In this document: positions 18,982-36,424 of the stretch, piece by piece
Layout of the letters: each line of letters opens with the position of its first letter
Numbering within the stretch: the stretch's first letter is position 1
NCBI GenBank assembly: GCA_902762785.1
Contig: CACWPL010000011.1
Coordinates: 1-64,000, forward strand
Origin: an uncultured Ruminococcus sp.
Lineage (GTDB): Bacteria; Bacillota; Clostridia; Oscillospirales; Ruminococcaceae
Direction: 5' to 3'
DNA: 64,000 nt
Notes under the pieces: model-generated
Database searches by the model: none
What the model was told of the DNA's origin: nothing
What the model saw: only the letters and a program-made list of their open reading frames with translations
Program-made: the position numbers and the translations under genes

Positions 18982-21657
18982 TCAGATGTTCTCGCTCCGA
19001 AGGGCCTCCATGGGGTCCTCGCGGGAGAGGCGGCGCATCGCGTAGATCATCGAGGCGAAGATCACCGCGAACACCGACCCGACCGCCGTCACCATCGCCG
19101 CGATCGGCAGATGGAACCCCGAATCGAAGCCGTCCCGCAGTGCGATCCAGATCAGCACCGTCGCGCCCACGCTCGCGGGCAGGCCGAAGAGCAGCGCGCG
19201 CGAGCCGCACAGCAGGCACTCGAAGCGCACCATGCCGTTGACCTGCCGTGTGCTCATCCCGACGGAGCGGAGCGTCGCGAGGGAGCGCCGACGCAGGGCG
19301 ATGTTCGTGGAGACGGAGTTGAACACGTTCGCCGCCGCGATCAGCGAGATCAGCACGATGAAGCCCGCGCTGAACACCTTCACGACCGTAATGATGCTCT
19401 GCTCGTTCTCCCGATTCGCCGTGAGGTCGTTGAGGTGGGAGGACGGGAGATGCTGCTCCTCGAGCAGCTTGCGGAGGGACTGCGCGGCCGCGGCGTGGTC
19501 TTCGGCGTAGATGTGGCACTCGGTCATGGCCGAGACACCTGCGGCGGACAGCACCTGCGGCATCGCGCTCGCCGGATAGAGGAACTGCAGCGTCATGCCG
19601 TCGAGCAGATAGTCCGGCCGCGTGTGGAGGACGGTGTCCCCATGCAGCGTGCGCTGGACGAAGGAGGCCTCCTCGGAGAGGTGGATCTCCTTGGCGTCCG
19701 GGTCGCTGCCGTCCGGCTCCCAGATCAGGTAGCCGTGCTCGTCCTCTCCGCCCAGGGTATAGCCGTCCATGCGCCGCAGGATCTGGGCGTGGAAGGTCAC
19801 GCTGTCGGCGTCGATCAGGTGTATCAGGCGGCGGGTGCTCGTCTTTTCGTCGATAGAGAGCACCTCATCGAGGACGAGCGCGGAGGGGGTATCGGTGTCG
19901 AAGAAGGGCCCCGGCAGGATGCCGTTCTCGTCGAGGAGCGAGCGGAAGACGCCGTCCTCGAGGAACGTGACGTACAGCAGATGCCCCTCCTCCTTGCCCT
20001 TGTCGTATTCGGCGATCCGCGGGACGACAGCGTCCGTCGCCTCCTTGGAGAACACGGCAGGGTCCATGCTCCCGCGCATGCTCATCGACATAGTGATGAC
20101 GGCGCGGTCGACGTTCGGGTCGGACTCGAAGAGCGCGCGGAGCCCGGTGGCATCGAGATCCGTGTCCTTCTCATCGAGATAATAGGAGATGTCCCACGCG
20201 CCCTCGTTGAACACCCCGCCCACGGCCTCCTGCAGGTAGCTCGTGAACGCCGATGCCGAGATGAAGAGCACCACGCTCATGAACAGGCTCAGCACGGTCG
20301 CACGGTACTGCTTGCGCGAGCGCTTGTACCAGCGATGGCCGAGCAGGCCGGGAAGGCCGAAGAGCTTGGAGATCCATTTGGGCGTGCGGGCGGCGCGCTT
20401 CTCGGCGCGGATGTCCTTGCTCTGGCGGATGGCCTCGATGGCGGTCACACGGGTGGCGCGGCGCGAGGGGATCCACGCGGAGAGCAGGACGGTCACGACG
20501 GCCACGGCCAGTGCGATCGCGAGGGCGATCCAGGAGACGTGCATCCGCATGGGGATGCCGCTCTCGGAGAGCGCCTTGAACCGCTCGCCGACGGCAAGGA
20601 ACGTCACGCCGATGCCCGCGAGGCCCAAGAGGATGCCGAGCGGGATGCCGATGACGCTCACGCAGAACGCCTCGAATCCGACCATATAGCGGATCTGCCG
20701 CCGCGTGGCGCCGACGGAGGACAGCAGTCCGAATTGCCGCGTGCGCTCGGAGACGGAGATCGCGAAGGCGTTGTAGATCAGTGAGACGGAGCCGAAGACG
20801 ATCATCCCGATCAGGATCGCTGCCATCCCCCAGACGACCTGGAGGAACGTCTCGTTCTTCGAGACGCCCATGAGATACAGCAGATGGTCGTGGGGCTTGG
20901 CGGACTCCTTCAAATGCAGCTCGTCGATGAGGTCATAGACCTTGCTGGGGCGCTTGAGGGTCGCCCAGACGGTCAACTCCGCGTCCTCCGGGGCGTCGCC
21001 CGCCGTCAGGCAGGTGTAGCCCGCGGCGGAGTAAGGCTCGATCCCGGGACGGTCCATGATGCCGCAGATGGTGTAGGTGCGCGTCTCGCGGGGGACGAAG
21101 GTCTCATCCGGGTCACCGGGCTCGCGCTCGTCCTTGGGATAATACGGGAACGACTGCCCGAGCGGGCGATCGCCGTCCATGCGGTCGCCGATCGTGAGCT
21201 CGACCGTGTCGCCGACCTGGTAATAGAGGCCGCCGTTCTCGGCCAGATGTGCGGGGATCACGAGCTCCGTGCCGTCCTTCGGCAGCGCGCCGGAGACAAG
21301 GCGGATGCCCGTCATCTCGGCCATCCCCTCCCCTGCCTCGAGGATGTAGAGATAGGGCTTGTACTCGTTGGTCGTCTCGACGTCCGCATAGCCGACCGTG
21401 CGGGCGGATACCGTCTGCGTGATGCGGCTGTCCTGCTCCAGCTTGTCGACGTCGGACGGGAGCGCGTTCGTAAGGGACAGATGCCAGCTCCCGCTGCGCC
21501 AGACCTCATCGTCGATCAGGTACTGCTGGAGCGTAGTGACCGAGGTCGTCACCGCCGTGGTCAGCGCGACCGAGAGCATGATGCCTACGATCGTGACCGC
21601 CGTGCGGACGCGGTTCTTTTTCAGCGAGGCCAGCGTGACCTTTTGGAAGACGTTCAT
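18982..21657 (-). CDS. ABC transporter permease A, double FtsX/MacB type
   Basis: 891 residues. An N-terminal helix (about 17-40, VTIVGIMLSVALTTAVTTSV) is followed by a MacB-like extracytoplasmic domain, a first FtsX domain of three helices (about 275-395, with GLLSSVGATRRQIRYMV), a fifth helix near 455-475, a second extracytoplasmic domain and a C-terminal FtsX domain (about 765-885, with LATLRSVGMSTRQVNGMV). This is the mechanotransmission class that transports, removes or senses substrates at the outer membrane face, such as cell-wall-active peptides. Its ATG overlaps the ATPase stop (ATGA). Confidence 0.9.
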   Translation of the reverse strand: MNVFQKVTLASLKKNRVRTAVTIVGIMLSVALTTAVTTSVTTLQQYLIDDEVWRSGSWHLSLTNALPSDVDKLEQDSRITQTVSARTVGYADVETTNEYKPYLYILEAGEGMAEMTGIRLVSGALPKDGTELVIPAHLAENGGLYYQVGDTVELTIGDRMDGDRPLGQSFPYYPKDEREPGDPDETFVPRETRTYTICGIMDRPGIEPYSAAGYTCLTAGDAPEDAELTVWATLKRPSKVYDLIDELHLKESAKPHDHLLYLMGVSKNETFLQVVWGMAAILIGMIVFGSVSLIYNAFAISVSERTRQFGLLSSVGATRRQIRYMVGFEAFCVSVIGIPLGILLGLAGIGVTFLAVGERFKALSESGIPMRMHVSWIALAIALAVAVVTVLLSAWIPSRRATRVTAIEAIRQSKDIRAEKRAARTPKWISKLFGLPGLLGHRWYKRSRKQYRATVLSLFMSVVLFISASAFTSYLQEAVGGVFNEGAWDISYYLDEKDTDLDATGLRALFESDPNVDRAVITMSMSMRGSMDPAVFSKEATDAVVPRIAEYDKGKEEGHLLYVTFLEDGVFRSLLDENGILPGPFFDTDTPSALVLDEVLSIDEKTSTRRLIHLIDADSVTFHAQILRRMDGYTLGGEDEHGYLIWEPDGSDPDAKEIHLSEEASFVQRTLHGDTVLHTRPDYLLDGMTLQFLYPASAMPQVLSAAGVSAMTECHIYAEDHAAAAQSLRKLLEEQHLPSSHLNDLTANRENEQSIITVVKVFSAGFIVLISLIAAANVFNSVSTNIALRRRSLATLRSVGMSTRQVNGMVRFECLLCGSRALLFGLPASVGATVLIWIALRDGFDSGFHLPIAAMVTAVGSVFAVIFASMIYAMRRLSREDPMEALRSENI

Positions 21658-24915: not shown

Positions 24916-26646
24916 ATGAAAGACAAAGAGATCATGGCGCATCTGCACCATGCGGATGACGCGACCCTGCGCCGCATCGCCCACGCTGCCCCCGCGACCG
25001 GCAAGGCAACGCGCAGCCGACTCTATCGCACGCTCCACGCCAGACGCAGCGGCGAGGACGACGCCGTCACCGAGACGTTCCGTGTGGAGACGGCGCCGCG
25101 GATGACGTTCGGACGCTATGTCGCCATCGCGGCGGCGCTTGCGCTCGCGGTGGGATGTGCCGCGCTCGGGACGTCGCTCCTGCGGCGGCCCGCGCTCCTG
25201 CCCGGCGGGGACATCGCCGTGGAGACGCCCGCGCCCACGACCGAGACGCAGGAGACGGCCGCCTCGGAGGGCGTTAGGGAGGACGAGCAACCGTCCATTT
25301 TGGTCGAGCTCGCCCGCCGCAATGCCGCGGATATGCCATGGCAGGGGCATGTGATCCTCGCGGCGGGGATCGGCGGTCTGGAATTCACCCATGTCGAGGA
25401 GATGGAGCACGTCAGTCCCGATGACGATGCGACCTATCCCGCCATCCAGATCTGGTACCAGGAGGGAGCGGAGCGATTCGAGGACGTGCGTTCCATCGCC
25501 GTCACCTATTCTGCGCTGCCGCGCGACACGGACGGCGCCCTCACGCCCGAGAACATCCCGGATGACCCCGCGGACGTGCGGCTCGGGGACGGGCAGCTCG
25601 ACTTCGTGATCGCGTGCGGGACGTTCTCCGTCGAGGTCTACAGCGAGAACGCCACCGAGGAGGAGCAGCGGATCGTGCTCGCGATGCTCCGCAATGCGTT
25701 CACCGATACGGACATCCAGGACGCGACCGACCCGCTCGCGCTCGACGCGCAGATCCTGCCAGGCATGTACACCGAGAGCGTGACCTATGCGGAGGCGGCA
25801 CAGCGCTATGGTGCGTTCCTGCCGGACGAGGATCTCGGCGCGATGCATTTCGTGACCGGCTTGCGCGACACGCTCATCGAGGAGGATGGCGGGTCCTACA
25901 CCTGCGACCGCCTCACCTACGCGAGCGCAGACGGCGAGCGGGCGCTCACGCTGACCCTGATGCCGCCCGGGACGATGGAGGACGGCGTCCTCCTGACGAT
26001 GTACGGCGACGATCATACCGCGAACGATCCCGCGATGCCGCAGATGGCGTGGGACGCATGGTCGATGAAGACGATCACGGCCGCGCCGTATGCAGAAACG
26101 GTCGACGACCGCTTGCAGAAGTATGCCTTCTGGGTCGACATGGACGGGTGCGAGGCGGCGTTCCTCGGGACGGTCACGATCGACGAGATCGGCGTCTTTG
26201 CGAACAGCTATTCGCTCGTGAACTACCGGCAGAGGCTCGAGGTCCCGGAGCGTTACGCCACGCCTGCCGAGCTCGATCAAGAGGACTATCCGTGGCAGGG
26301 GCAGCTCGTGACTGCGGACGAGATCGCCGGTCTCCCGCTCACGCAGAGCCTGCGGATGTCGCTCTCACCGAAGATGGGAGAACTGTATCCGTCCGTCGTG
26401 CTGCAATACGGCGGCGAGACCGTGCAGTTCCTCACGCTCATCTACACCACCGCGCCGCTCGACGCGCTGGACACGGAGGGACGCACCATCGCCCCGGAGG
26501 CGCTCAGTGCCGAGACGCTGCTCTCCGATCCTGCCTACCGCACAGGCGATTCGCTCGACTTCTTCGTGGACTATGGGACATACCGTCTGCACGTCAAGAT
26601 GGATGCCGACAACGCTGTGCTCGAGACGCTGCTCGCGATGCTGTGA
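24916..26646 (+). CDS. Single-pass membrane protein, putative anti-sigma factor with duplicated outer domain
   Basis: 576 residues. A cytoplasmic N-terminal 65 residues begins MKDKEIMAHLHHADDATLRR, the same opening pattern as the 238-aa protein next to ECF 2. One membrane helix (about 68-90) follows, then a Thr/Glu-rich linker and a large outer region. Residues about 139-262 and 456-576 are diverged copies of one module (PWQGHVILAAGIGGL/PWQGQLVTADEIAGL; GDGQLDFVIACGTF/GDSLDFFVDYGTY). Topology and position argue for an anti-sigma or sigma-linked sensor. No zinc anti-sigma motif is seen. Confidence 0.7.
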   Translation: MKDKEIMAHLHHADDATLRRIAHAAPATGKATRSRLYRTLHARRSGEDDAVTETFRVETAPRMTFGRYVAIAAALALAVGCAALGTSLLRRPALLPGGDIAVETPAPTTETQETAASEGVREDEQPSILVELARRNAADMPWQGHVILAAGIGGLEFTHVEEMEHVSPDDDATYPAIQIWYQEGAERFEDVRSIAVTYSALPRDTDGALTPENIPDDPADVRLGDGQLDFVIACGTFSVEVYSENATEEEQRIVLAMLRNAFTDTDIQDATDPLALDAQILPGMYTESVTYAEAAQRYGAFLPDEDLGAMHFVTGLRDTLIEEDGGSYTCDRLTYASADGERALTLTLMPPGTMEDGVLLTMYGDDHTANDPAMPQMAWDAWSMKTITAAPYAETVDDRLQKYAFWVDMDGCEAAFLGTVTIDEIGVFANSYSLVNYRQRLEVPERYATPAELDQEDYPWQGQLVTADEIAGLPLTQSLRMSLSPKMGELYPSVVLQYGGETVQFLTLIYTTAPLDALDTEGRTIAPEALSAETLLSDPAYRTGDSLDFFVDYGTYRLHVKMDADNAVLETLLAML

Positions 26647-26652
26647 CGCTTG

Positions 26653-26690
26653 GCGCCCCTTCCTAGTGGGAGGGGCGCTTGCATTTTTCT
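26653..26690 (+). terminator. Terminator of the first ECF operon
   Basis: GCGCCCCTTCC pairs with GGGAGGGGCGC (one G-T pair), loop TAGT, followed by TTGCATTTTTCT. The tail doubles as the -35 of the next promoter. Confidence 0.8.
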
Positions 26691-26707
26691 GTGAGATATG
26701 GTATCAT
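26679..26707 (+). promoter_or_regulatory. Promoter of the second ECF operon
   Basis: TTGCAT at 26679-26684, inside the preceding terminator tail, and TATCAT at 26702-26707 with a 17-nt spacer and extended TGG. The leader of about 110 bases contains the CAAAAC/CGTCC series shared with the first ECF operon. Confidence 0.65.
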
Positions 26708-26821
26708 AGCCATAGAAAAAATATTTTTCAAAACATGTGTAAGATTCCCGCGCGTCCCCCGTCTATGTTAGATGAAGGCGGGAGGACCGCCTGGAATGGC
26801 CATTTTGAGAGGAGGTGCCGC

Positions 26822-27358
26822 ATGACGGACGAAGCGCTGCGGACGCTGCTGCGGGAGGATCCCCCGCGCGGGCAGGCCGCACTTTACGACGAATACGCCA
26901 ACTACGCCTACGCCGTGATCGCGCGGCACATCGCGGACGGCGCCACGCAGGAGGACATCGAGGACTGCTTCGTGGAGACGTTCACCGACATCCTGCCCCG
27001 CGCTGCCGGGATCATCGGGTCGATCAAGGCCTATGTCGGCACGGCCGCACGCCACCACGCCATCGACCACGGCATCGCCATCCGCAAGCGCATCGCCCGG
27101 ACGGTGCCGCTCGAGGACGCCGCGGAGCCGTCCTTCTCCCATGTCGAGGAGGAGGTCGAGGCGCGCGCACGCAACACCGCGCTCATGGAGGCCGTCGATG
27201 CCCTCGGCGAGCCGGACGCGACCATCCTCATCCAGAAGTATTTCTATCGCCGAAAAATGGCGGACATCGGCCGCATGGTCGGGCTGACCGCCAATGCCGC
27301 GCAGGTGCGCTGCAGCCGTGCGCTGAAGCGTCTGCGGAGGATGCTAGAGGAGGTGTAG
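26822..27358 (+). CDS. ECF-family RNA polymerase sigma factor 2
   Basis: 178 residues. Region 2 (YDEYANYAYAVIARHI, EDIEDCFVETFTDILPRA, YVGTAARHHAIDHGI) and region 4 (LGEPDATILIQKYFYRRKMADIG, then AQVRCSRALKRLRRMLEEV) are intact and line up with ECF 1, indicating a duplicated sigma module. The ATG follows GAGGAGG by seven bases. The next gene starts one base after the stop; its ribosome site lies in the end of this gene. Confidence 0.88.
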   Translation: MTDEALRTLLREDPPRGQAALYDEYANYAYAVIARHIADGATQEDIEDCFVETFTDILPRAAGIIGSIKAYVGTAARHHAIDHGIAIRKRIARTVPLEDAAEPSFSHVEEEVEARARNTALMEAVDALGEPDATILIQKYFYRRKMADIGRMVGLTANAAQVRCSRALKRLRRMLEEV

Positions 27359-27359
27359 C

Positions 27360-28076
27360 ATGAACGAGAAGGAGATCGAGCGGATGCTGCGCCATCCCGA
27401 TGACGAGACCGCGCGCCGTCTCACCGAGGGCCGTCCCCCGCTGGACGATGCCGCCAAGGCGCGCCTCTGGGCAAGGATCCAGGACGAGATGACGTCTGCC
27501 GACACGGTACACGGAGAGGCGCCTGTCGTGAAGCGCCGCATCTGGCCGTCGCTCGCGGTCGCGGCCGCATGCGTGGTCGTGTTTGGCGGGACGTTCGCGG
27601 GACTGTTCTCGATGTCGCGTCCTGTGGTCAGCCCAGAGCCGACCGTCCCCACCGCCCCTGCCGACATCGCCGATACGCTGCCTTTCGCAGTCGGGGAAAG
27701 GTTCGCAGCGGACGGTCTGACCGAGAGCGGGACGCTCTGGATCACGGTGACGTCCGCGTCGCCCGTGGACGGTGATCTGTCCGCATGGACGGTACACGTC
27801 ACGGCCGCGAGCGAGGACGCTGTCCCGCGCGGCGGGGCGACGCAGTTCTGTGCCGACAACTTCCTCGCGGTCAAGGACGAGACGATCGTCTCCCCGTATC
27901 AGTGCGACACCGATCGTCCCGGTGACGCGCACTGCACGTTCGTCCTCAAAAACGGCCAAACGGCCTCGCTCACGCTGTATTATCGCTTTTTGGAGGACAC
28001 GCCGTCCTTCCGCCTCGCGACCGGGACGGATCCGGCCTGCCCCAGCGTGGAGATCAAAATGGAGGGTAACACATGA
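27360..28076 (+). CDS. Single-pass membrane protein, putative anti-sigma factor of ECF 2
   Basis: 238 residues. The N terminus MNEKEIERMLRHPDDETARRL matches the style of the 576-aa protein beside ECF 1. One membrane helix (about 64-86, LAVAAACVVVFGGTFAGLF) separates a cytoplasmic segment of about 60 residues from a 150-residue outer domain of beta character with two Cys residues that could form a disulfide. It probably holds the sigma factor until a signal arrives. ATGA overlap couples it to the following lipoprotein gene. Confidence 0.65.
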   Translation: MNEKEIERMLRHPDDETARRLTEGRPPLDDAAKARLWARIQDEMTSADTVHGEAPVVKRRIWPSLAVAAACVVVFGGTFAGLFSMSRPVVSPEPTVPTAPADIADTLPFAVGERFAADGLTESGTLWITVTSASPVDGDLSAWTVHVTAASEDAVPRGGATQFCADNFLAVKDETIVSPYQCDTDRPGDAHCTFVLKNGQTASLTLYYRFLEDTPSFRLATGTDPACPSVEIKMEGNT

Positions 28077-30451
28077 GATATATCAGACTTTTCGCTGCAC
28101 TGACCGCCGCGGTCCTGCTCTGCGGCTGCAGCCCGGTCCCCGCGGAGGACCCGTCCGCGAACGCACCCGACCTCACCGCCGCGACCGAGGCGGCACCGCT
28201 GGAACATGCCGCGCTCACGAACATCGCGCGCGTCGAGGACGTCCCGCTCCCCGAGGGGTGCTTTTATTGGGAGGCAAAGCGCATGGGCGACGGCGTCGCT
28301 TTCGCGGACGAGACCGGCGTCACGGTCTTCTCGCCGTCGCTCGAGACGCGGCGCATCGAACTCGTGCCGCTCGCGCTGCGGGAGGGGCAGATGCTCGAGG
28401 GCGTGTTGTATGCCTACGAGGGCGACGTCATCTACACGCTGACGATCCTCGCCGATCACGGCGGCCTCGACCCCGAGCATCCCGATGAGAATGACCCGAG
28501 CTTCTGGGAAAAATACGAGGATCAGCGCGTCGCCGAGTATTATCTTTGCACCTACGCTGCGGACGGGACGCTCGTCGACAAGGTCCTGCTGACCGGCATG
28601 TCGGCGTTCGAGAACGCGTCTCACGAGATCGAGCCTGCGTCGCTGACCGTGGTCGGCGGGACGGCGCTCCTGGTCTTCCAGACCGGGCGCGTGTGCCGCC
28701 TCGACAAAGACGGCTCCGTCACCGAGATCACGCCGCCTGTGGAGGACGCCGCTCACTGCGCCTTCACCGAGATCCTTCTCGACCGGGACGGCGCGCCGCT
28801 CTACTACTCGCTCTGGGAGGACGACCGCGGCGAGGGCATCGTCGGCACCCACAGGCTCAACGCCTACGACCCCGCGACCGGCGCGGTCGGGGACGAGGTC
28901 GCGTCTGTCGATGCCGGCTTCAGCGACATCGGGTATCTCCGTGCGTCGGACGGCGGCGCGGGCGACTACCGGCTCTTCCTCACCGCGGAGGAAGGCGTCC
29001 TCGGTCTGCGCGACGACGGCACGCTCGAGACGGTCGTGGACTGGAAGGCCTCCGACCTCCAGGCCATGCGTGTCGTCCCCTTCGCGGACGGCACCTTCCT
29101 CGGCATGAACGGCGACATGACCGCCATGCACCTGACCCGCAAGCGTGCCGACGAGATCGTCGAGGACACCGTCCTGCGGATCGCCGTTCCTGGGAACGAC
29201 TACGACATCCGCGACTTCGTGCAGAAGTATAATCGTACCCATGACGGCGTCCGCATCGAGACCTCCGTCTACGAGACCGCGGCCGACGATCCGAATGCCG
29301 TGGACGATGCCCTCGAGAAGATCAAGACCGACATCCTCCTCAAGAACGGCGAGAGCCCCGACCTCGTCTGGATGGACGGGCAGCACGAGCAATTCCTCAG
29401 GATGGGGAGCCGCGGGGTGTTCCTCGACCTCTCCGAGCGGCTCGACGGGGACGCACAGATGCCCGCGCTCGTGGACAACGTGATCGACGCGATGCGCCAC
29501 CCGAACGGCGCCCTCTACACGCTCACGCCCGGATGGCGGGTCGAGACGCTGGCGGTCAAGGAGAAGTACGGCGTGCCCGACAACTGGACGATGGACGACA
29601 TGCTCGCTCTCTACGACGGCGCCCCCGACATCACTTATTATTGGTCGACCAAGGACGACATGCTCCGCACCCTCCTGACCGGCACGCGCTTCACGGACGA
29701 GCTCGCCGGGACGTGCAGCTTCGATTCGCCGGCGTTCGTGCAGATGCTCGAATTCTGCGACCGCTGGCCGTCCGAGAGCACCTGCCCCGCCAAGGACTAC
29801 GAGGATGAGACGAGGATGCACGAGTTCGAGAACTGGCACCTCGAGGCGTTCCTGCGCTTCCGCCGGGACGAGGACTTCCTCTACCCGCTCACGATCGGGC
29901 GAATCGGGCAGAACAGCATGGCGTCCCCGTTCTGCTACGCGAAGGCCGAGCTGGGCGGTGCGCTCACCTGCCCCGGCTATCCCTCCGAGGACGGACAGGG
30001 CGGCAAGGTCACGGCATGGGGCGAGATGGGCATCGTGTCGACCTGTACGGAGCAGGATCTGGCGTGGGACTTTCTGAAGTCGTATGTGCTGGAGAGCGAG
30101 GTCTACGCCGAGCCGGAGCCCTATCCGATCGTGGACGCGGAGTTCGAGACCGCGCTCGACGACGAGATGTACATCTTTGGCTACAACGAGGAGAGCGGCG
30201 GCTTTGGCCGCACGGATACGCCGTTCTATGACGATGATGTGGACGTCTATCCCCTCTCGCAGGAGGAGCGTGACGCGCTAGAGGCCTACCTGCGCGGGTG
30301 CAGGACGTACCAGATGCTCGACCGCGACGTGGAGACGATCGTCCTCGAGGAGGCCGAGGTCTTCTTCGCCGGCGACCGCTCCGCCGAGGACACCGCCAAG
30401 GCCATCCAGCGCCGCGCCGAGCTGATGCTCAGCGAACAGAGCGCGTCCTGA
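28073..30451 (+). CDS. Large lipoprotein with C-terminal extracellular solute-binding domain
   Basis: 792 residues. MRYIRLFAALTAAVLLCGCS is a lipoprotein signal with lipobox LCGC (Cys19). Residues about 50-365 contain repeating beta-rich segments with internal WE/YD motifs and may form a propeller-like domain. From about 368 a type-1 solute-binding fold starts (VLRIAVPGNDYDIRDFVQKY, ILLKNGESPDLVWMDG, PGWRVETLAV, WGEMGIVSTC), as in ABC sugar- or peptide-binding proteins. No permease for uptake is adjacent, so within the ECF operon it may act as a ligand sensor. Ends before a terminator. Confidence 0.75.
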   Translation: MRYIRLFAALTAAVLLCGCSPVPAEDPSANAPDLTAATEAAPLEHAALTNIARVEDVPLPEGCFYWEAKRMGDGVAFADETGVTVFSPSLETRRIELVPLALREGQMLEGVLYAYEGDVIYTLTILADHGGLDPEHPDENDPSFWEKYEDQRVAEYYLCTYAADGTLVDKVLLTGMSAFENASHEIEPASLTVVGGTALLVFQTGRVCRLDKDGSVTEITPPVEDAAHCAFTEILLDRDGAPLYYSLWEDDRGEGIVGTHRLNAYDPATGAVGDEVASVDAGFSDIGYLRASDGGAGDYRLFLTAEEGVLGLRDDGTLETVVDWKASDLQAMRVVPFADGTFLGMNGDMTAMHLTRKRADEIVEDTVLRIAVPGNDYDIRDFVQKYNRTHDGVRIETSVYETAADDPNAVDDALEKIKTDILLKNGESPDLVWMDGQHEQFLRMGSRGVFLDLSERLDGDAQMPALVDNVIDAMRHPNGALYTLTPGWRVETLAVKEKYGVPDNWTMDDMLALYDGAPDITYYWSTKDDMLRTLLTGTRFTDELAGTCSFDSPAFVQMLEFCDRWPSESTCPAKDYEDETRMHEFENWHLEAFLRFRRDEDFLYPLTIGRIGQNSMASPFCYAKAELGGALTCPGYPSEDGQGGKVTAWGEMGIVSTCTEQDLAWDFLKSYVLESEVYAEPEPYPIVDAEFETALDDEMYIFGYNEESGGFGRTDTPFYDDDVDVYPLSQEERDALEAYLRGCRTYQMLDRDVETIVLEEAEVFFAGDRSAEDTAKAIQRRAELMLSEQSAS

Positions 30452-30508: not shown

Positions 30509-30523
30509 GCAGTAATTGGGAAA

Positions 30524-30577
30524 GTGACAAAAATGTAATATTGCGATAATGTGATCGTCATCCTGATGTGGTATCAT
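30524..30577 (+). promoter_or_regulatory. Regulated promoter of ABC transporter B
   Basis: TATCAT at 30572-30577 with extended TGG, no -35 consensus at 17 nt. GTGAC (30524-30528) and GTCATC (30557-30562) lie at the same distances from the -10 as in ABC promoter A. A near direct repeat AATGTAAT/AATGTGAT lies between them. Likely response-regulator sites. Confidence 0.6.
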
Positions 30578-30604: not shown

Positions 30605-31315
30605 ATGGAGATCTTAAAAGTGGAGGACCTTTGCAAGGTCTATGGGAAAGGCGAGAACGAGGTCCGGGCCGTGGACGGGGTGTCGTTCCGCGTGCCGAAG
30701 GGACAGATGGTCGCGGTCGTCGGAGCGAGCGGCTCCGGCAAGTCCACGCTGCTGCACATGATCGGCGCGGTCGACCGCCCGACGTCGGGGAAGATCTGGC
30801 TCGACGGGCAGGACGTGTTCGAGCGGAACAACAGAGAGCTGGCCATCTTCCGCAGGCGGCAGGTCGGGCTGATCTATCAGTTCTACAACCTGATCCCCGT
30901 CCTGACGGCGGAGGAGAACATCACGCTCCCGCTCCTGATGGACGGCCGAAAGCCTGACAAGGCGCATCTCGAGCGGGTCCTCGACCTGCTCGGATTGAAG
31001 GAGCGCCGGGACCATCTCCCCTCGCAGCTCTCGGGCGGACAGCAGCAGCGCGTGTCCATCGGCAGGGCGATCATCACGTCCCCGCAGGTCATCCTCGCGG
31101 ATGAGCCGACCGGCAACCTCGACAGCAAAAATAGTGCCGAGATCATGGCACTGTTCCGCCGCTCGAACCGGGAGCTGAAGCAGACCATCCTCATCATCAC
31201 GCATGATGAGAGCATCGCGGAGCAGTGCGACCGCATCATCGTCCTGCGTGACGGCAGGATCGTCTCGGACGACGGCGCGCAGACGCAGGAGGAGGCGGAT
31301 GGGCATGCGCTATGA
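30605..31315 (+). CDS. ABC transporter ATPase B
   Basis: 236 residues with Walker A GASGSGKSTLLH, YQFYNLIPVL, signature LSGGQQQRVSIGRAI, Walker B VILADEPTGNLD and H-loop ITHDE. Close paralog of ATPase A. The ATG at 30605 follows AGGAGGTG; the longer frame from 30551 would start upstream of the -10. The last 17 bases overlap the start of the permease-hydrolase gene. Confidence 0.92.
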   Translation: MEILKVEDLCKVYGKGENEVRAVDGVSFRVPKGQMVAVVGASGSGKSTLLHMIGAVDRPTSGKIWLDGQDVFERNNRELAIFRRRQVGLIYQFYNLIPVLTAEENITLPLLMDGRKPDKAHLERVLDLLGLKERRDHLPSQLSGGQQQRVSIGRAIITSPQVILADEPTGNLDSKNSAEIMALFRRSNRELKQTILIITHDESIAEQCDRIIVLRDGRIVSDDGAQTQEEADGHAL

Positions 31316-34300
31316 ATCCCTCCTCGCCGCCCGCTACATCAAGGCGCAGAGGCGGCAGTCCGTCTTCACGGTCATCAGCATCGCGGTCGCAGTCGCGGTC
31401 ATGACGACGGTGTTTTTGCTCTACAGCGTCTTCATGGACTGCTTCAAGGAGATCACCTACAGCGCGGCGCCCTATCACCTGGCCGTCGACGCACTGACCG
31501 AGGAGCAGGCGGCGGCGCTCCAGGAGGAGCCGCACGTCGGCGCCGTCAAGGTCTCGCGCGTCGAGGACGGGACAGTGACTGCCTACCTTCGGTTCGACGG
31601 CGACATCGGCGACCGGGACCGTTGGCTCCAGACGGCCACCGATCACATCGGCGCCGCGCAGGTCTTCCAGAAGAACCGATACCAATGGAATAATGCGCTG
31701 ATGGATCTCGACGCCATCGGGGACGGGGCGCACCTGTTCCGCCTGCGGATCTTCGCGATCTTCTTCATCTTCGCGATCATCATGGAGCTGTCGCTGCGCC
31801 TGATCGTGGACACGGCCTTCGAGGTCTCGTCCAAGGAGCGCGAGCGGCACTATGGCGTGCTCCAGTCCATCGGCGCCACGCCCGAGCAGATCGTGCGGAT
31901 CATCACCTTCGAGGGACTGCGCCTCTGCGTGGTCGCCGTGCCGCTCGGCCTGCTGGTGGGCATCGGCTTTGCCTATGCCATGTACTATGCCACGCTGGCA
32001 TCGGGACTGGACGACCTCTTCCACGGGATGACCGACGCGACACTGTACCTGCCGTTCTCGATCGACCCGAGGATGCTGCTGATCGCGGCGGTCTTCGGCA
32101 TCGTGTGGGTCTTCCTCTCCGCCTATGGCGTGGGCATGCGTATCATCAAGAAGTCGCCCATGGAGGCCATCCTCGGCCGTGCCGCCCAGGTCAAGAAGGT
32201 GAAGCGCCGCACGCTCTCCGGCCTGCTCTTCGGCATCTCCGGCAGCCTCGCCGCGCGCAATGCCAAGCGGCAGAAGAAGCGCTTCGTCATCACCGTTTTG
32301 ACGATGACCGTCTCGATCACGATGTTCGCGCTCTTCTCGACGGTGACGCAGTCGCTCGAGCGGAGCGTCACCGGCCTGATGACGACCATCATCGACGATT
32401 CGGATCTGCTGGTCTATCTCCCGGAGGACCTGAGCCGGGGGATCACCTATGAGGATGGCATCCGGGACATCGAGGAGAGCGGCCTGTTCTGCGACATCGG
32501 CATCGAGGTCACGCAGACCGTCAAGCTGGAGGGGGACGCCCATGTATACTATGTGAACTACCTGAACAAGGAGATGTTCGAGAAGCGCTTTGGCGACAGC
32601 GCGCCGGTCAGCTATGAGACGCTCGTGCGCACGGGCGGCTACCTCCTCAACAGCGCGAGCAATGAGTATCCGTCCGTCTCCGAGGCGGTCAGCGGCGACA
32701 CGCTGGCGCTGCGCTCGGTGCATCTCACGTTCGCAAGGGACACGCTCCAGGAGGGCATGACGATCCGGGAATACCTCAAGTCCACCGAGAAGACCGAGAT
32801 CCCGCAGACCGTCACGATCCTCGGCACGGCGAAGGAGCAGAGCATCATGATCACCACAGGCTGCTGCCTGGTCGGCGCACTGGAGACGTACCAGAGCATC
32901 CATGAGGAATGGTACGGCGAGGTCACGTCCATGGCGGACGCCGCCTTCTCCTATGCTTCGGAGAACGACTATAATGCGGCCGATCACGCCAAGATCACCG
33001 ACTGGCTCGATGCCCACCCGGACACGATCTCGCTCGACTTCGACAACTACGGCACCAGATGGCGCATCCACAGCGTGATGTCCTCGGTGCGCACGGGTCT
33101 CTTCATCCTCAACGTGATGATCGCTCTGGCGGCGCTGATCGATCTGGTGAACATCATCTCCACCGGCCTTGCGGACCGCCGCAGCGAGCTGGCGTCCCTG
33201 CAATGCGTCGGCATGACCGACCGGCAGCTCGACCGCATGGCGATGCTCGAGGTGCTGCAATTCGCGGGGGCGGGCGCGTTCTTCTCGGCAGTCATCTGTG
33301 CGGCCGTGATCATCGGGTGTGAGGCGCTCATGACGGCATGGATCCGCGCGACCTTCACCACCGAGACCCAAGCGATGCAGGACATGCTGCTCGGCCTCGT
33401 TCAGATGGATCATGTCACGCCCTTCCTTCGGGTCGCGGGCGCGTCCGTGATCGCGTTCGCGGCGGGATGTGTCACCTCGCTCGTCATGCTGCGCACGCAG
33501 TCCGCCGAGAGCCTGACCGACCAGATCCGCGGCACGGAGATGCAGCTCGACACCAAGCGCACGCACATCCTCCGCAATACCGTGATCGCCGTGCTGGGGG
33601 CCGTCGTCCTCACGATCGCAGGCCTGCGGATCTATGCGGTCGCCTCCTTCCAGAATGACCGTAAGGAATATGAAAAAGCGGGCTATCTCCATCTCGTCGA
33701 CGGCACGGACGGCAAGCGCAACATCTACCGCACCGGCGCCGAGGACGGGAGGCACACGATCGTCGGGCTCGCGGGGATCGGCGTCAACTGCTTCCCTGTC
33801 CTGACCGAGGCGCTCAACGAACGCCTCGGCGCGGAGAACACGCTCGTCTATCCCGACCGCGCCGGCTATGGCCTCAGCGATGATTCGTCCAAGCCCCAGA
33901 CGCTCGAGCAGGTCGTGGAGGACTACCGCGCCGCGCTGCGCAATGACGGCTTGGCCCCGCCCTATGTGCTGATGGGGCACTCCTACGGCGGCTATTATGC
34001 GCTCTGGTGGGAGCTGCACTATCCCGACGAGGTGGAGGCGATCGTCTTCCTGGACGGCACGGAGCTGCCGAAGAGCGCGCTCTGGTTCGCCGGCCTGCTC
34101 GAGGAATATCCCTCCGAGGCGGATGCCAGGGCGGACATGCGGCGACAGACGATGCGGACATGGCTCGGCCTCGACCGTCTCTTCCCGCAGCACATGGGCG
34201 ATCCCGAGACCGGGGCGCACATCTACGGCGCATCGGTGCTGACGCCGGAGCAGATCCGCCTCTGGGACATCTCCGACCACCGCACCGCCACTGCCGCGAG

Positions 34301-34679
34301 CGCGTCCGAGATGCTGCTGACAGAGCCGTCCTACCGGGAGCTCGCCGAGACGGTCGTGCCGACGAGCACCCCGAAGCTGTACCTCTCGACGACGCCCTCC
34401 TGTGAGGCGGACATCTGCGAGGCGGAGCAGTTCGTCAAGGCCGACCGGGAGGCCGCCGGGCTCACCTACGCCTCCGATCCCGCGACCGTGGCGCATACCA
34501 CCTGGCAGGCGATCGCAAGGGTGGTCAAGGCGTACCACGCCGACTACTTCGACCCCTTCTTCGCGCAGATCGGCAGCACGCAGTATGTCACGATCGGCGG
34601 CGACCACGGCCTCTTCTACGCACAAAAGCCGCAGGAGACCGCGGACGCGATCCTCGCCTTCCTCGCGGAGATGGGATGA
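31299..34679 (+). CDS. ABC permease B (double FtsX) fused to an extracytoplasmic alpha/beta-hydrolase
   Basis: 1126 residues in one open frame. The permease part (1-755) has a first helix (about 22-42), an outer domain, an FtsX domain of three helices (about 145-280, GVLQSIGATPEQIVRII), a fifth helix, a second outer domain and a second FtsX domain (about 605-740, ELASLQCVGMTDRQLDRM). A ninth helix (about 760-783) follows, placing the C terminus outside the cell. Residues about 790-1126 are an alpha/beta-hydrolase: YPDRAGYGLSD, nucleophile elbow GHSYGGYYAL (Ser895), VFLDGTELP (candidate acid Asp919) and GGDHGLFY (His1103). ATGs at 31299 or 31305 both have AGGAGG sites. Confidence 0.9.
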   Translation: MGMRYESLLAARYIKAQRRQSVFTVISIAVAVAVMTTVFLLYSVFMDCFKEITYSAAPYHLAVDALTEEQAAALQEEPHVGAVKVSRVEDGTVTAYLRFDGDIGDRDRWLQTATDHIGAAQVFQKNRYQWNNALMDLDAIGDGAHLFRLRIFAIFFIFAIIMELSLRLIVDTAFEVSSKERERHYGVLQSIGATPEQIVRIITFEGLRLCVVAVPLGLLVGIGFAYAMYYATLASGLDDLFHGMTDATLYLPFSIDPRMLLIAAVFGIVWVFLSAYGVGMRIIKKSPMEAILGRAAQVKKVKRRTLSGLLFGISGSLAARNAKRQKKRFVITVLTMTVSITMFALFSTVTQSLERSVTGLMTTIIDDSDLLVYLPEDLSRGITYEDGIRDIEESGLFCDIGIEVTQTVKLEGDAHVYYVNYLNKEMFEKRFGDSAPVSYETLVRTGGYLLNSASNEYPSVSEAVSGDTLALRSVHLTFARDTLQEGMTIREYLKSTEKTEIPQTVTILGTAKEQSIMITTGCCLVGALETYQSIHEEWYGEVTSMADAAFSYASENDYNAADHAKITDWLDAHPDTISLDFDNYGTRWRIHSVMSSVRTGLFILNVMIALAALIDLVNIISTGLADRRSELASLQCVGMTDRQLDRMAMLEVLQFAGAGAFFSAVICAAVIIGCEALMTAWIRATFTTETQAMQDMLLGLVQMDHVTPFLRVAGASVIAFAAGCVTSLVMLRTQSAESLTDQIRGTEMQLDTKRTHILRNTVIAVLGAVVLTIAGLRIYAVASFQNDRKEYEKAGYLHLVDGTDGKRNIYRTGAEDGRHTIVGLAGIGVNCFPVLTEALNERLGAENTLVYPDRAGYGLSDDSSKPQTLEQVVEDYRAALRNDGLAPPYVLMGHSYGGYYALWWELHYPDEVEAIVFLDGTELPKSALWFAGLLEEYPSEADARADMRRQTMRTWLGLDRLFPQHMGDPETGAHIYGASVLTPEQIRLWDISDHRTATAASASEMLLTEPSYRELAETVVPTSTPKLYLSTTPSCEADICEAEQFVKADREAAGLTYASDPATVAHTTWQAIARVVKAYHADYFDPFFAQIGSTQYVTIGGDHGLFYAQKPQETADAILAFLAEMG

Positions 34680-34763: not shown

Positions 34764-35438
34764 ATGCCAAAGGTATTACTCGTCGAGGACGACGAACAGC
34801 TCGCGCGGCTGCTGATGCGCTCCCTCAATGCCGAGGGCTATTCGACCGACTATGCGAGCGGACAACGGGACGCGCTGCGCCTGTTCGAGGAGAACGTCTA
34901 TGACTGCGTCCTGCTCGATATATCGCTGAAGGATGGCAATGGATACTCGGTCTGCGCAGCGATCAAGGCGCAGGACGATACGCCGGTCATCTTCATCACT
35001 GCATCGGCGGACGAGGCCTGCACGGTCGCCGCCTTCGAGATCGGGGCGGACGATCACATCGGCAAGCCCTTCGGCACCCGTGAGCTGCTCGCCCGCATGA
35101 AGAACGTGATGCGGCGCCATCGGCGGTCCTCGCCGATCCTGCGCTGCCGGAACGTCACGATCGACCCGATCCGCGGCATCGTCTCGAAGGACGGCCGTGA
35201 GCTGACGCTGTCGGCGCTGGAATACCGTCTGCTCCTGATCTTCTTCTCGAACAAGGAGCAGCTTCTCTCCCGTGACCGCCTCGCGGAGGAGCTCTGGTCA
35301 CTGACGAAGGAGTTCGTCTCGGACAATACGCTGAACGTCTACATCCGCCGTCTGCGCGAGAAGATCGAGGACGACCCGCAGTCGCCCCAGATCATCGTCA
35401 CGGTCCGAGGCCTCGGCTATAAGGCGGTGGACACATGA
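34764..35438 (+). CDS. OmpR-family response regulator B
   Basis: 224 residues. Receiver domain with VEDDEQ, phospho-acceptor Asp52 in LLDISLKDG and Lys in HIGKPFGTREL; winged-helix domain from about 125 ending IIVTVRGLGYKAVDT. Closely parallels regulator A, for example in the shared LSALEYRLLL segment. The ATG at 34764 follows AGGAGGTGAC; the frame upstream would start within the promoter. Its stop overlaps the kinase start. It likely controls ABC transporter B and perhaps A. Confidence 0.9.
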   Translation: MPKVLLVEDDEQLARLLMRSLNAEGYSTDYASGQRDALRLFEENVYDCVLLDISLKDGNGYSVCAAIKAQDDTPVIFITASADEACTVAAFEIGADDHIGKPFGTRELLARMKNVMRRHRRSSPILRCRNVTIDPIRGIVSKDGRELTLSALEYRLLLIFFSNKEQLLSRDRLAEELWSLTKEFVSDNTLNVYIRRLREKIEDDPQSPQIIVTVRGLGYKAVDT

Positions 35439-36424
35439 CCGACAAAAAGCGCAGGCTCGTCCACCTTCTTTTGACGGCGGCTCTGGCGGTCCCCTGCCTG
35501 TTTTTCAGCATCCGGTGTGCGGCCGTGACGGTCCTGACGTCGGCGGTGTTCCTCGTGTTTTATGAATGGTCGCTCGCACGGCGGCGGAACGATGTCATCG
35601 CGCTTTGCGATGACATCGACCGTATCCTGCGCGGGGACGATCGGATCGCCTTCGATGCCTACAAGGAGGGCGAGCTGAGCGTCCTATCTGCGGAGATCCA
35701 TAAAATGACCATCCGCCTGCGGGAGCAAAACGGCGAGCTGGCGCGGGAAAAGCAGTTCGCGAAGGAAGCCTTGGAGGACATCTCCCATCAGCTCCGCACG
35801 CCGCTGACCTCGGTCATGATGATCCTTGATCTGATGCGCGCCCCCGATCTGACAGACGAGGAAAGACAGGCGTACCTGCGGGACTTATATGAGCTCCTTG
35901 CCCGCATGAAATGGCTCATCGAGACGATGCTGAGCCTGTCCCGGATCGAGGCAGATGCGGTGCGGTTCGCAAGGGATCCCGTTTCCTGCCGCGACCTGAT
36001 CCGGCGGTCTGTCGAGACCGTCTCTGTGACGGCCGAGCTCAAGGGCGTCGAGATCGTGACAGACATCGACGGCGAGCCGACGTTCATCGGGGATCTGCAT
36101 TACACCTCCGAGGCGGTCGTCAACCTGCTGAAAAACGCGATCGAGCACACGCCCGCAGGCGGCACGGTCACGGTCACGGCCAAGGAGAGCAGCCTCTCCA
36201 CGGAGATCACGATCGCGGACACCGGCGCGGGCATCCCCGAGGAGGAGCTGCCGCACATCTTCGAGCGCTTCTACCGCGCCTCCTCCTACACGAAGAACGG
36301 CTTCGGCATCGGACTTGCCTTTGCCAAAAAGGTCATCAGTGCCCAGAACGGCAGTCTGCGGGCATCGGACTGCGTGCCGCACGGGGCGGTCTTCGAGATC
36401 CGCTTTTACAAAACGGTCGTATAG
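35435..36424 (+). CDS. Sensor histidine kinase B, intramembrane-sensing type
   Basis: 329 residues. Two N-terminal helices (about 9-27 and 29-46) with virtually no outer loop. DISHQLRTPLTS holds His118; N box VVNLLKNAIEH, G1 IADTGAGIP and G2 GFGIGLAFAKK are intact. A kinase this short outside the membrane cannot easily bind a ligand itself, which fits a transporter-sensing role with the permease-hydrolase just upstream. ATGA overlap with regulator B. Confidence 0.9.
   Translation: MTDKKRRLVHLLLTAALAVPCLFFSIRCAAVTVLTSAVFLVFYEWSLARRRNDVIALCDDIDRILRGDDRIAFDAYKEGELSVLSAEIHKMTIRLREQNGELAREKQFAKEALEDISHQLRTPLTSVMMILDLMRAPDLTDEERQAYLRDLYELLARMKWLIETMLSLSRIEADAVRFARDPVSCRDLIRRSVETVSVTAELKGVEIVTDIDGEPTFIGDLHYTSEAVVNLLKNAIEHTPAGGTVTVTAKESSLSTEITIADTGAGIPEEELPHIFERFYRASSYTKNGFGIGLAFAKKVISAQNGSLRASDCVPHGAVFEIRFYKTVV

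Follow-up and report, generated by a model that had tools for sequence, protein, structure and literature searches.

Background

In the closest described system, the E. coli complex YbbAP-TesA, YbbAP is proposed to extract hydrophobic compounds and to present them to the hydrolase TesA, a separate GDSL-family protein annotated as a lysophospholipase (PMC12646458). Substrate hand-over from a type VII ATP-binding cassette (ABC) machine to an enzyme has been proposed recently, and for this one complex (PMC12646458). The gene described here lies at 31299-34679 (+) of a 64,000-nucleotide stretch of DNA from an uncultured Ruminococcus sp. (assembly GCA_902762785.1, contig CACWPL010000011.1, positions 1 to 64,000), which was analysed as a whole and is called the window. 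The gene encodes an FtsX-type ABC permease that continues through a ninth transmembrane helix (TM9) into an alpha/beta-hydrolase. The fusion recurs in Ruminococcus-related bacteria, some of them from the rumen, and judging by its sequence it probably senses and destroys an envelope-damaging compound.

The window fusion shares with YbbAP-TesA a permease with two FtsX-type halves and two extracytoplasmic domains (ECDs), and a hydrolytic enzyme on the predicted outer side. YbbP has 10 helices and two large periplasmic domains, whereas the window permease has 8 helices and its first ECD is small. TesA is a separate GDSL-family protein, whereas the alpha/beta-hydrolase is covalently attached and has its own helix; no two-component system is described for YbbAP-TesA in the sections consulted (PMC12646458). 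By this comparison, the fusion would realise a YbbAP-TesA-like pairing in one chain, with another hydrolase family and beside a two-component system. In a Foldseek search with the whole model, the best match by E-value was E. coli YbbP (9ge6, E 6e-13), and BceABS stood at rank 7. According to the first-pass annotation, no member of the BceAB/MacB class with a built-in hydrolase is known. This has to be qualified: a type VII ABC machine with an extracytoplasmic hydrolase has been published (PMC12646458), though the hydrolase there is a separate protein of another family. An FtsX-hydrolase fusion was not found in the titles and shown abstracts listed by searches of the open-licence literature, where the unhyphenated phrase "alpha beta hydrolase" misses the slash spelling. 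The words fused and fusion are absent from the main text of PMC12646458 and from the passages of PMC12654888.

BceAB-RS and GraSR/VraFG likewise combine an ABC transporter with an OmpR-type regulator and a kinase with hardly any extracytoplasmic part; they also share a permease ECD of about 200 residues, and their operator, of the TGACA-N4-TGT form, resembles the element before the window ATPase (PMC12484072, PMC3128592). The OmpR-type regulator and the minimal outer part of the window kinase, whose two-helix region is a reading of the sequence, fit the BceAB type. The permease does not belong to the BceB type to which it had been assigned: BceB has 10 helices and a single ECD between TM7 and TM8 (PMC12484072), whereas the permease of the window fusion has 8 helices, carries another, small ECD in the TM1-TM2 gap and is joined to the hydrolase. 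The fusion links the hydrolase-partnered branch, YbbAP, with the kinase-partnered one, BceAB. MacB and LolCDE share the FtsX fold, and LolD and MacB are among the best solved relatives of the window ATPase, but they are 4-helix paired permeases whose partners are an adaptor and a channel or a chaperone and not an enzyme (PMC12646458). The free membrane-anchored alpha/beta-hydrolases of Bacillota have the same N-terminal helix and hydrolase but no permease.

The fusion gene and its recurrence

The fusion and its parts are as follows, with the evidence in brackets.

31299..34679 (+), fusion of a two-FtsX permease, TM9 and an alpha/beta-hydrolase, 1126 amino acids (aa) (open reading frame (ORF) listing, translation, Pfam, alignment, model)
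31299..33539 (+), permease part, residues 1-747, 8 transmembrane helices (alignment, model, hydropathy)
32391..33068 (+), large ECD, residues 365-590, in the TM5-TM6 gap; the least conserved part (secondary structure, identity, divergence)
33540..33680 (+), linker plus TM9, residues 748-794, with a hydrophobic core at 762-780 (alignment to the N-terminal anchor of free hydrolases)
33681..34676 (+), alpha/beta-hydrolase domain, residues 795-1126 (Pfam, triad invariance, fold matches)
33981-33983, 34053-34055 and 34605-34607 (+), codons of the triad residues Ser895, Asp919 and His1103 (triad invariance)

The listed ORF spans 31203-34679, and reading from 31299 gives 1126 aa without a stop. The true start may be 31305, since three aligned relatives begin with MRYE or MKYE. 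A scan of named genomes gave 27 loci, comprising 18 intact fusions that are 50-66% identical, three unfused loci (L101, L102, L107) and six that are cut or broken. L095 runs in frame to the contig end within the hydrolase, L099 is frame-broken, and L100, L103, L105 and L106 are cut before the junction. The first-pass annotation had named recurrence of the junction in several species as support, and it was right that this is a true fusion in one uninterrupted frame. An assembly or frameshift artefact was rejected because the same junction recurs intact in 18 of the 27 loci.

The record titles of the intact fusions all name Ruminococcus or Oscillospiraceae metagenome-assembled genomes (MAGs), and a rumen or omasum sample is mentioned as well in 7 of these 18 titles. 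An intact fusion occurs in 4 of 38 genomes of the genus sample (G000, G005, G023, G027), and three of these genomes correspond to the records L082, L086 and L098; overall, eight of the 27 named loci share records with G genomes. G021 has both ends of the fusion on separate contigs. The family sample (396 genomes) has an intact fusion in three genomes of a second genus (G393, G352, G429), and G080, of a third genus, carries a fusion with a broken frame. This break lies just after TM9 at L099:8232-8430 (= G080:C18), in the one frame-broken fused copy of the scan; it may be genuine or reflect an assembly error. The idea of a programmed frameshift at this point was dropped, since the L099 and G080 breaks are one record and hence a single case. 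With the hydrolase profile (E<=1e-25), only the window's own frame appeared as a fusion of more than 700 aa among the matches listed for 398 phylum and 394 order genomes, with at most five candidates scored per genome, a limit at which weaker or unrelated fusions may have escaped; the listing for the order genomes shows the broken G080 copy as a 383-aa frame. The fusion was not found in the viral scan or the first genome scan, the plasmid scan gave no place covering 80% of the query, and no anti-phage system model matched.

Pfam finds two FtsX stretches in the permease and Abhydrolase_6 at 837-1117, above the gathering score. The odd helix count that had been proposed is borne out by hydropathy, with eight strong permease segments at 22, 151, 209, 260, 329, 602, 660 and 712 and a ninth at 762-780. 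A weaker segment at 821-839 falls within the hydrolase, where the model has a strand. Ten scanned relatives have eight strong permease segments each, some with an extra weak one. The AlphaFold2 model, built from 27 sequences, has two ECDs in the permease, between TM1 and TM2 (about 80 residues) and between TM5 and TM6. Its predicted local distance difference test (pLDDT) values are mostly 80-96 in the hydrolase, with a low of 57 at 961-970, and below 50 at 737-762. The FtsX domains, an ECD after the first helix of each unit and the MacB/LolD-type ATPase agree with a type VII ABC transporter.

The hydrolase triad lies where it had been placed. In the model, Ser895, Asp919 and His1103 sit in loops after predicted strands 889-894, 912-918 and 1094-1098, so that the elbow, the acid and the histidine are in the loops expected of an alpha/beta-hydrolase. 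Ser895 and Asp919 are each conserved in 20/20 fused copies and His1103 in 19/19 copies reaching that point. The elbow positions vary among copies, residue 893 being G, P, A or V and residue 897 G or A. The closest folds are haloalkane dehalogenase-like enzymes (Foldseek). In enzymes of this kind the catalytic acid follows strand 6.

Origin of the fusion

Unfused permeases end at an SLxDQIR-like motif, and the fused ones continue from that point. The 43-row tree of the permease part groups all 21 fused copies in a single clade (92/96), as do 90% of 200 bootstrap trees, and the unfused orthologs branch before it; therefore, a single gain is sufficient. The alignment leaves out L100, L105, L106 and the partial loci L019 and L027, and the tree also leaves out L022, L033, L035 and L117 and the unfused family-sample copies that lack loci; L103 is uncounted and the frame-broken L099 is labelled as fused. 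On the 53-row tree of TM9 and the hydrolase, a single clade (100/100) holds the fused hydrolases, and 33 free ones fall outside it. L122, the sole row labelled "alone" inside this clade, is the frame-broken fused copy.

Free relatives of the hydrolase are frequent in the genus, and the 398-genome phylum sample has them in 29 other genomes (E<=1e-25); they coexist with the fusion in G000, G005, G023 and G021. They are separate proteins with frames mostly of about 315-390 aa, which match residues ~756-1123 at roughly 27-34% identity in the long matches and keep the triad in the five that were aligned. The five examined carry one N-terminal hydrophobic segment each, which aligns with TM9. The simplest reading of TM9 is therefore as the anchor that the free enzyme already had. 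By the trees, the fusion has a single origin, at the normal C-terminus of the permease; its source was a membrane-anchored hydrolase, which is widespread in separate form.

The hydrolase is predicted to face the outside of the cell, because TM9 is likely the anchor of the free enzyme and the even number of permease helices leaves the permease end in the cytoplasm. The single N-terminal segment of the five free relatives thus speaks for the outward placement that the first-pass annotation had proposed. The free enzymes also occur in other settings: L074:8218-10424 has two free membrane-anchored hydrolases in tandem, and at L078:6540-8338 one directly follows a MerR-like regulator (name read from the sequence).

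Constraint and exchange of outward modules

Over six chosen pairs, the ratio of nonsynonymous to synonymous substitution rates (dN/dS) is 0.19-0.46 in the hydrolase and 0.20-0.44 in the permease; one pair has a dS of 0.02 and one of 1.3, which makes those two ratios rough. By these ratios the hydrolase is under purifying selection. Compared with the window, residues 1-350 are 62-74% identical, the large ECD 28-55%, the hydrolase core 59-73% and its lid 34-67%.

The operons of L088 and L108 are 91-99% identical in DNA (150-column windows) over the ATPase, TM1-5, TM6-8 and the 900 bases downstream, which cover the regulator and the first part of the kinase. Identity falls to 55-85% in two blocks, one being the ECD and the other TM9-hydrolase. 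The dS between the two loci is 0.09 in transmembrane domain 1 (TMD1), 0.70 in the ECD, 0.12 in TM6-8, 0.97 in TM9 and 1.28 in the hydrolase. On the hydrolase tree, holding L088 and L108 together is rejected by the approximately unbiased (AU) test (p 3e-62), as is the permease-tree group with L093; these groups were chosen after viewing the trees, so the p-values are not those of prior hypotheses. The ECD tree leaves L088 and L108 unseparated (79/81). The ECD block is therefore ambiguous and may result from exchange among near relatives or from fast change. Since two near-identical operons differ strongly only in the ECD and TM9-hydrolase, the comparison suggests that outward modules are exchanged between operons. 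Special co-evolution of the ECD and hydrolase was also considered and not seen over 171 pairs, with per-pair values listed for 22 of them; this comparison and that by DNA windows leave out L095 and L099.

The operon and its operator-like element

The genes and the element around the fusion are as follows.

30521..30549 (+), operator-like element AAAGTGACA-N4-TGTAATATT..GATAA, 56-84 bases 5' of the ATPase ATG (recurrence upstream of the ATPase)
30605..31315 (+), ABC ATPase, LolD/MacB/BceA/YbbA-like, with AGGAGG before the ATG and a 17-base overlap with the fusion frame (Pfam ABC_tran 3e-35, in a longer frame from 30551)
34764..35438 (+), OmpR-family response regulator (Pfam Response_reg and Trans_reg_C, in a longer frame from 34731)
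35435..36424 (+), sensor kinase that is hydrophobic near its N-terminus and lacks an extracytoplasmic domain (Pfam HisKA and HATPase_c)

The ATPase start was assigned by reading the sequence, and the solved relatives of this protein include LolD, DppD, MacB, PsdA, BceA, YtrE and YbbA. Hydropathy gives one hydrophobic region in the kinase (best 8-26), which may be read as two adjoining helices to about residue 45. Together with Pfam, this upholds the proposed operon of an ATPase, a response regulator and a kinase without room for an outer domain. Orthologs adjoining fused permeases are 82-87% identical for the regulator and 72-78% for the kinase. The pair lies directly downstream in 15 of the 18 intact fusions; in L094 it is upstream and divergent, in L092 the contig ends before it, and L090 has no orthologous pair in its 6-kb flank. 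Besides the four genes, no conserved neighbour appeared among the largest clusters listed (21/28 loci; many clusters were antisense frames).

TGACA-N4-TGTAA precedes the ATPase in 20 of the 21 loci compared, three of them unfused (L082, L087, L092, L095, L100, L103 and L104 were left out). The 15-base core TGACAAAACTGTAAG is identical in 18 of these; the window and L102 vary, and L107 lacks the element. Of the 9 fused genomes searched, 8 have a single site for a longer pattern (<=3 mismatches); the exception is G005, whose contig begins inside the ATPase gene. The unfused G034 has two 3-mismatch sites on other contigs. The reversed pattern, used as a control, had zero matches in 13 genomes. 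An inverted repeat AAGTGACA-N4-TGTCATTT is cited upstream of the GraR-controlled vraFG operon, and BceR likewise binds inverted repeats (PMC3128592). The window has AAGTGACA-AAAA-TGTAATAT, which agrees with the GraR-linked repeat in 8/8 and 6/8 bases, a resemblance of sequence only.

The L090 copy (L090:5295-9456) is the second fused copy of the MAG of L083 (CAMKMD) and keeps the element that precedes the complete operon L083:1320-7158, which suggests that it may be controlled in trans from the other copy.

Proposed role and alternatives

The favoured reading, with a probability of roughly 0.55, is that the fusion works as a type VII ABC machine: it would pull out a compound associated with the envelope, pass it to its own outside hydrolase and be wired to a two-component system whose kinase has no outer domain. 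The architecture, origin, constraint, operator-like element and divergence of outward modules are taken from the sequence; we infer the steps of extraction, hydrolysis and signalling, as well as the substrate. In such a type VII (mechanotransmission) machine, the FtsX-type permease would have permanently acquired an extracytoplasmic partner enzyme. ATP binding would move the permease and bring an envelope-associated compound, probably one that bears an ester, up to the tethered hydrolase for cleavage outside the cell. The state of the transporter would be relayed to the kinase, and the phosphorylated regulator would turn the operon up. The likeliest role, by analogy, would be defence against changing envelope-active compounds from neighbours, given that the outward parts are variable and that the operator-like element and the kinase resemble those of antimicrobial-peptide systems. 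A narrower version is more tentative and more apt to be wrong than right: a one-piece capture-and-destroy sensor whose ligand-facing ECD and hydrolase are traded as cassettes between otherwise fixed operons, so that Ruminococcus-like lineages could keep pace with changing ester- or lactone-bearing antimicrobials while the motor, kinase, regulator and operator stay constant.

Several observations weigh against the extraction-and-hydrolysis reading. The support of 92 for the fused clade is below 95, the level starred by the program. The model is a moderate one (mean pLDDT 75.9, predicted template modelling score (pTM) 0.59), and with a TM-score of 0.32 by query and a root-mean-square deviation of 16 it matches YbbP only loosely. 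The hydrolase attached to the window permease belongs to another family than the GDSL-type TesA; it may be positioned to receive substrate, but the domain arrangement in the model is unreliable at this pTM. The net charges flanking TM9 are alike on both sides (-2 to +3 vs -1 to +2), and the positive-inside rule therefore cannot decide the orientation of the hydrolase. Divergence of the ECD and hydrolase shows no special link beyond that of the membrane part (partial correlation 0.16-0.17). In G021 (L066) the hydrolase end of the split copy is not trailed by the regulator and kinase. The unfused orthologs L101, L102 and L107 retain the same regulator and kinase, which makes the hydrolase an add-on. 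The system had been called self-contained; these unfused loci, and the fused L090 without a nearby pair, do not support this in the sense of needing the hydrolase.

The main rival, which is unlikely but deserves weight, is lipid housekeeping as proposed for YbbAP-TesA. Here extracted lysophospholipids or other membrane lipids would be cleaved and the two-component system would sense membrane damage rather than a foreign compound. YbbP as the best solved fold match agrees with this, as does TesA, an annotated lysophospholipase for which the same role is proposed (PMC12646458). However, a constant substrate needs neither replacement of the ECD and hydrolase between near-identical operons nor a lid more variable than the core, and the operator-like element and the kinase without an outer domain resemble those of antimicrobial-peptide systems.

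Attachment may instead serve localisation only, with TM9 as an anchor, fusion ensuring co-expression and no substrate passing from permease to hydrolase. The anchor helix already owned by the free relatives, the low-confidence linker at 737-762 and the lack of a special link between ECD and hydrolase divergence are consistent with this. It is nevertheless improbable, since the fused clade contains zero unfused copies (contig-cut loci left out; L099 frame-broken) despite the free forms in G000, G005, G023 and G021. A non-catalytic ligand-binding or regulatory fold would accommodate the variable elbow positions but is very improbable, as all three triad residues are invariant wherever the sequence reaches and sit in canonical loops.

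The proposal of hand-over to an enzyme gains independent support from this covalent fusion, which occurs naturally in a distant phylum, is under selection and lies next to a kinase of the transporter-sensing type. The fusion offers a single polypeptide for testing such hand-over. If a cleaved compound is found, the system would represent a defence in which sensing and destruction are coupled at the membrane.

Neighbouring genes

The gene directly upstream of the operon (28073-30451) encodes a 792-aa protein with a weak solute-binding Pfam match below the cut-off. At 24916-30451, two frames lacking a Pfam match (576 and 238 aa) lie around a gene with a weak sigma region-4 match, also below the cut-off (26801-27358). 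L107:444-8298 has three unfused permease frames around one ATPase, two before and one after, followed by the regulator and kinase. The window also has a second FtsX/MacB-type permease at 20170-21603 (-), in a 916-aa frame.

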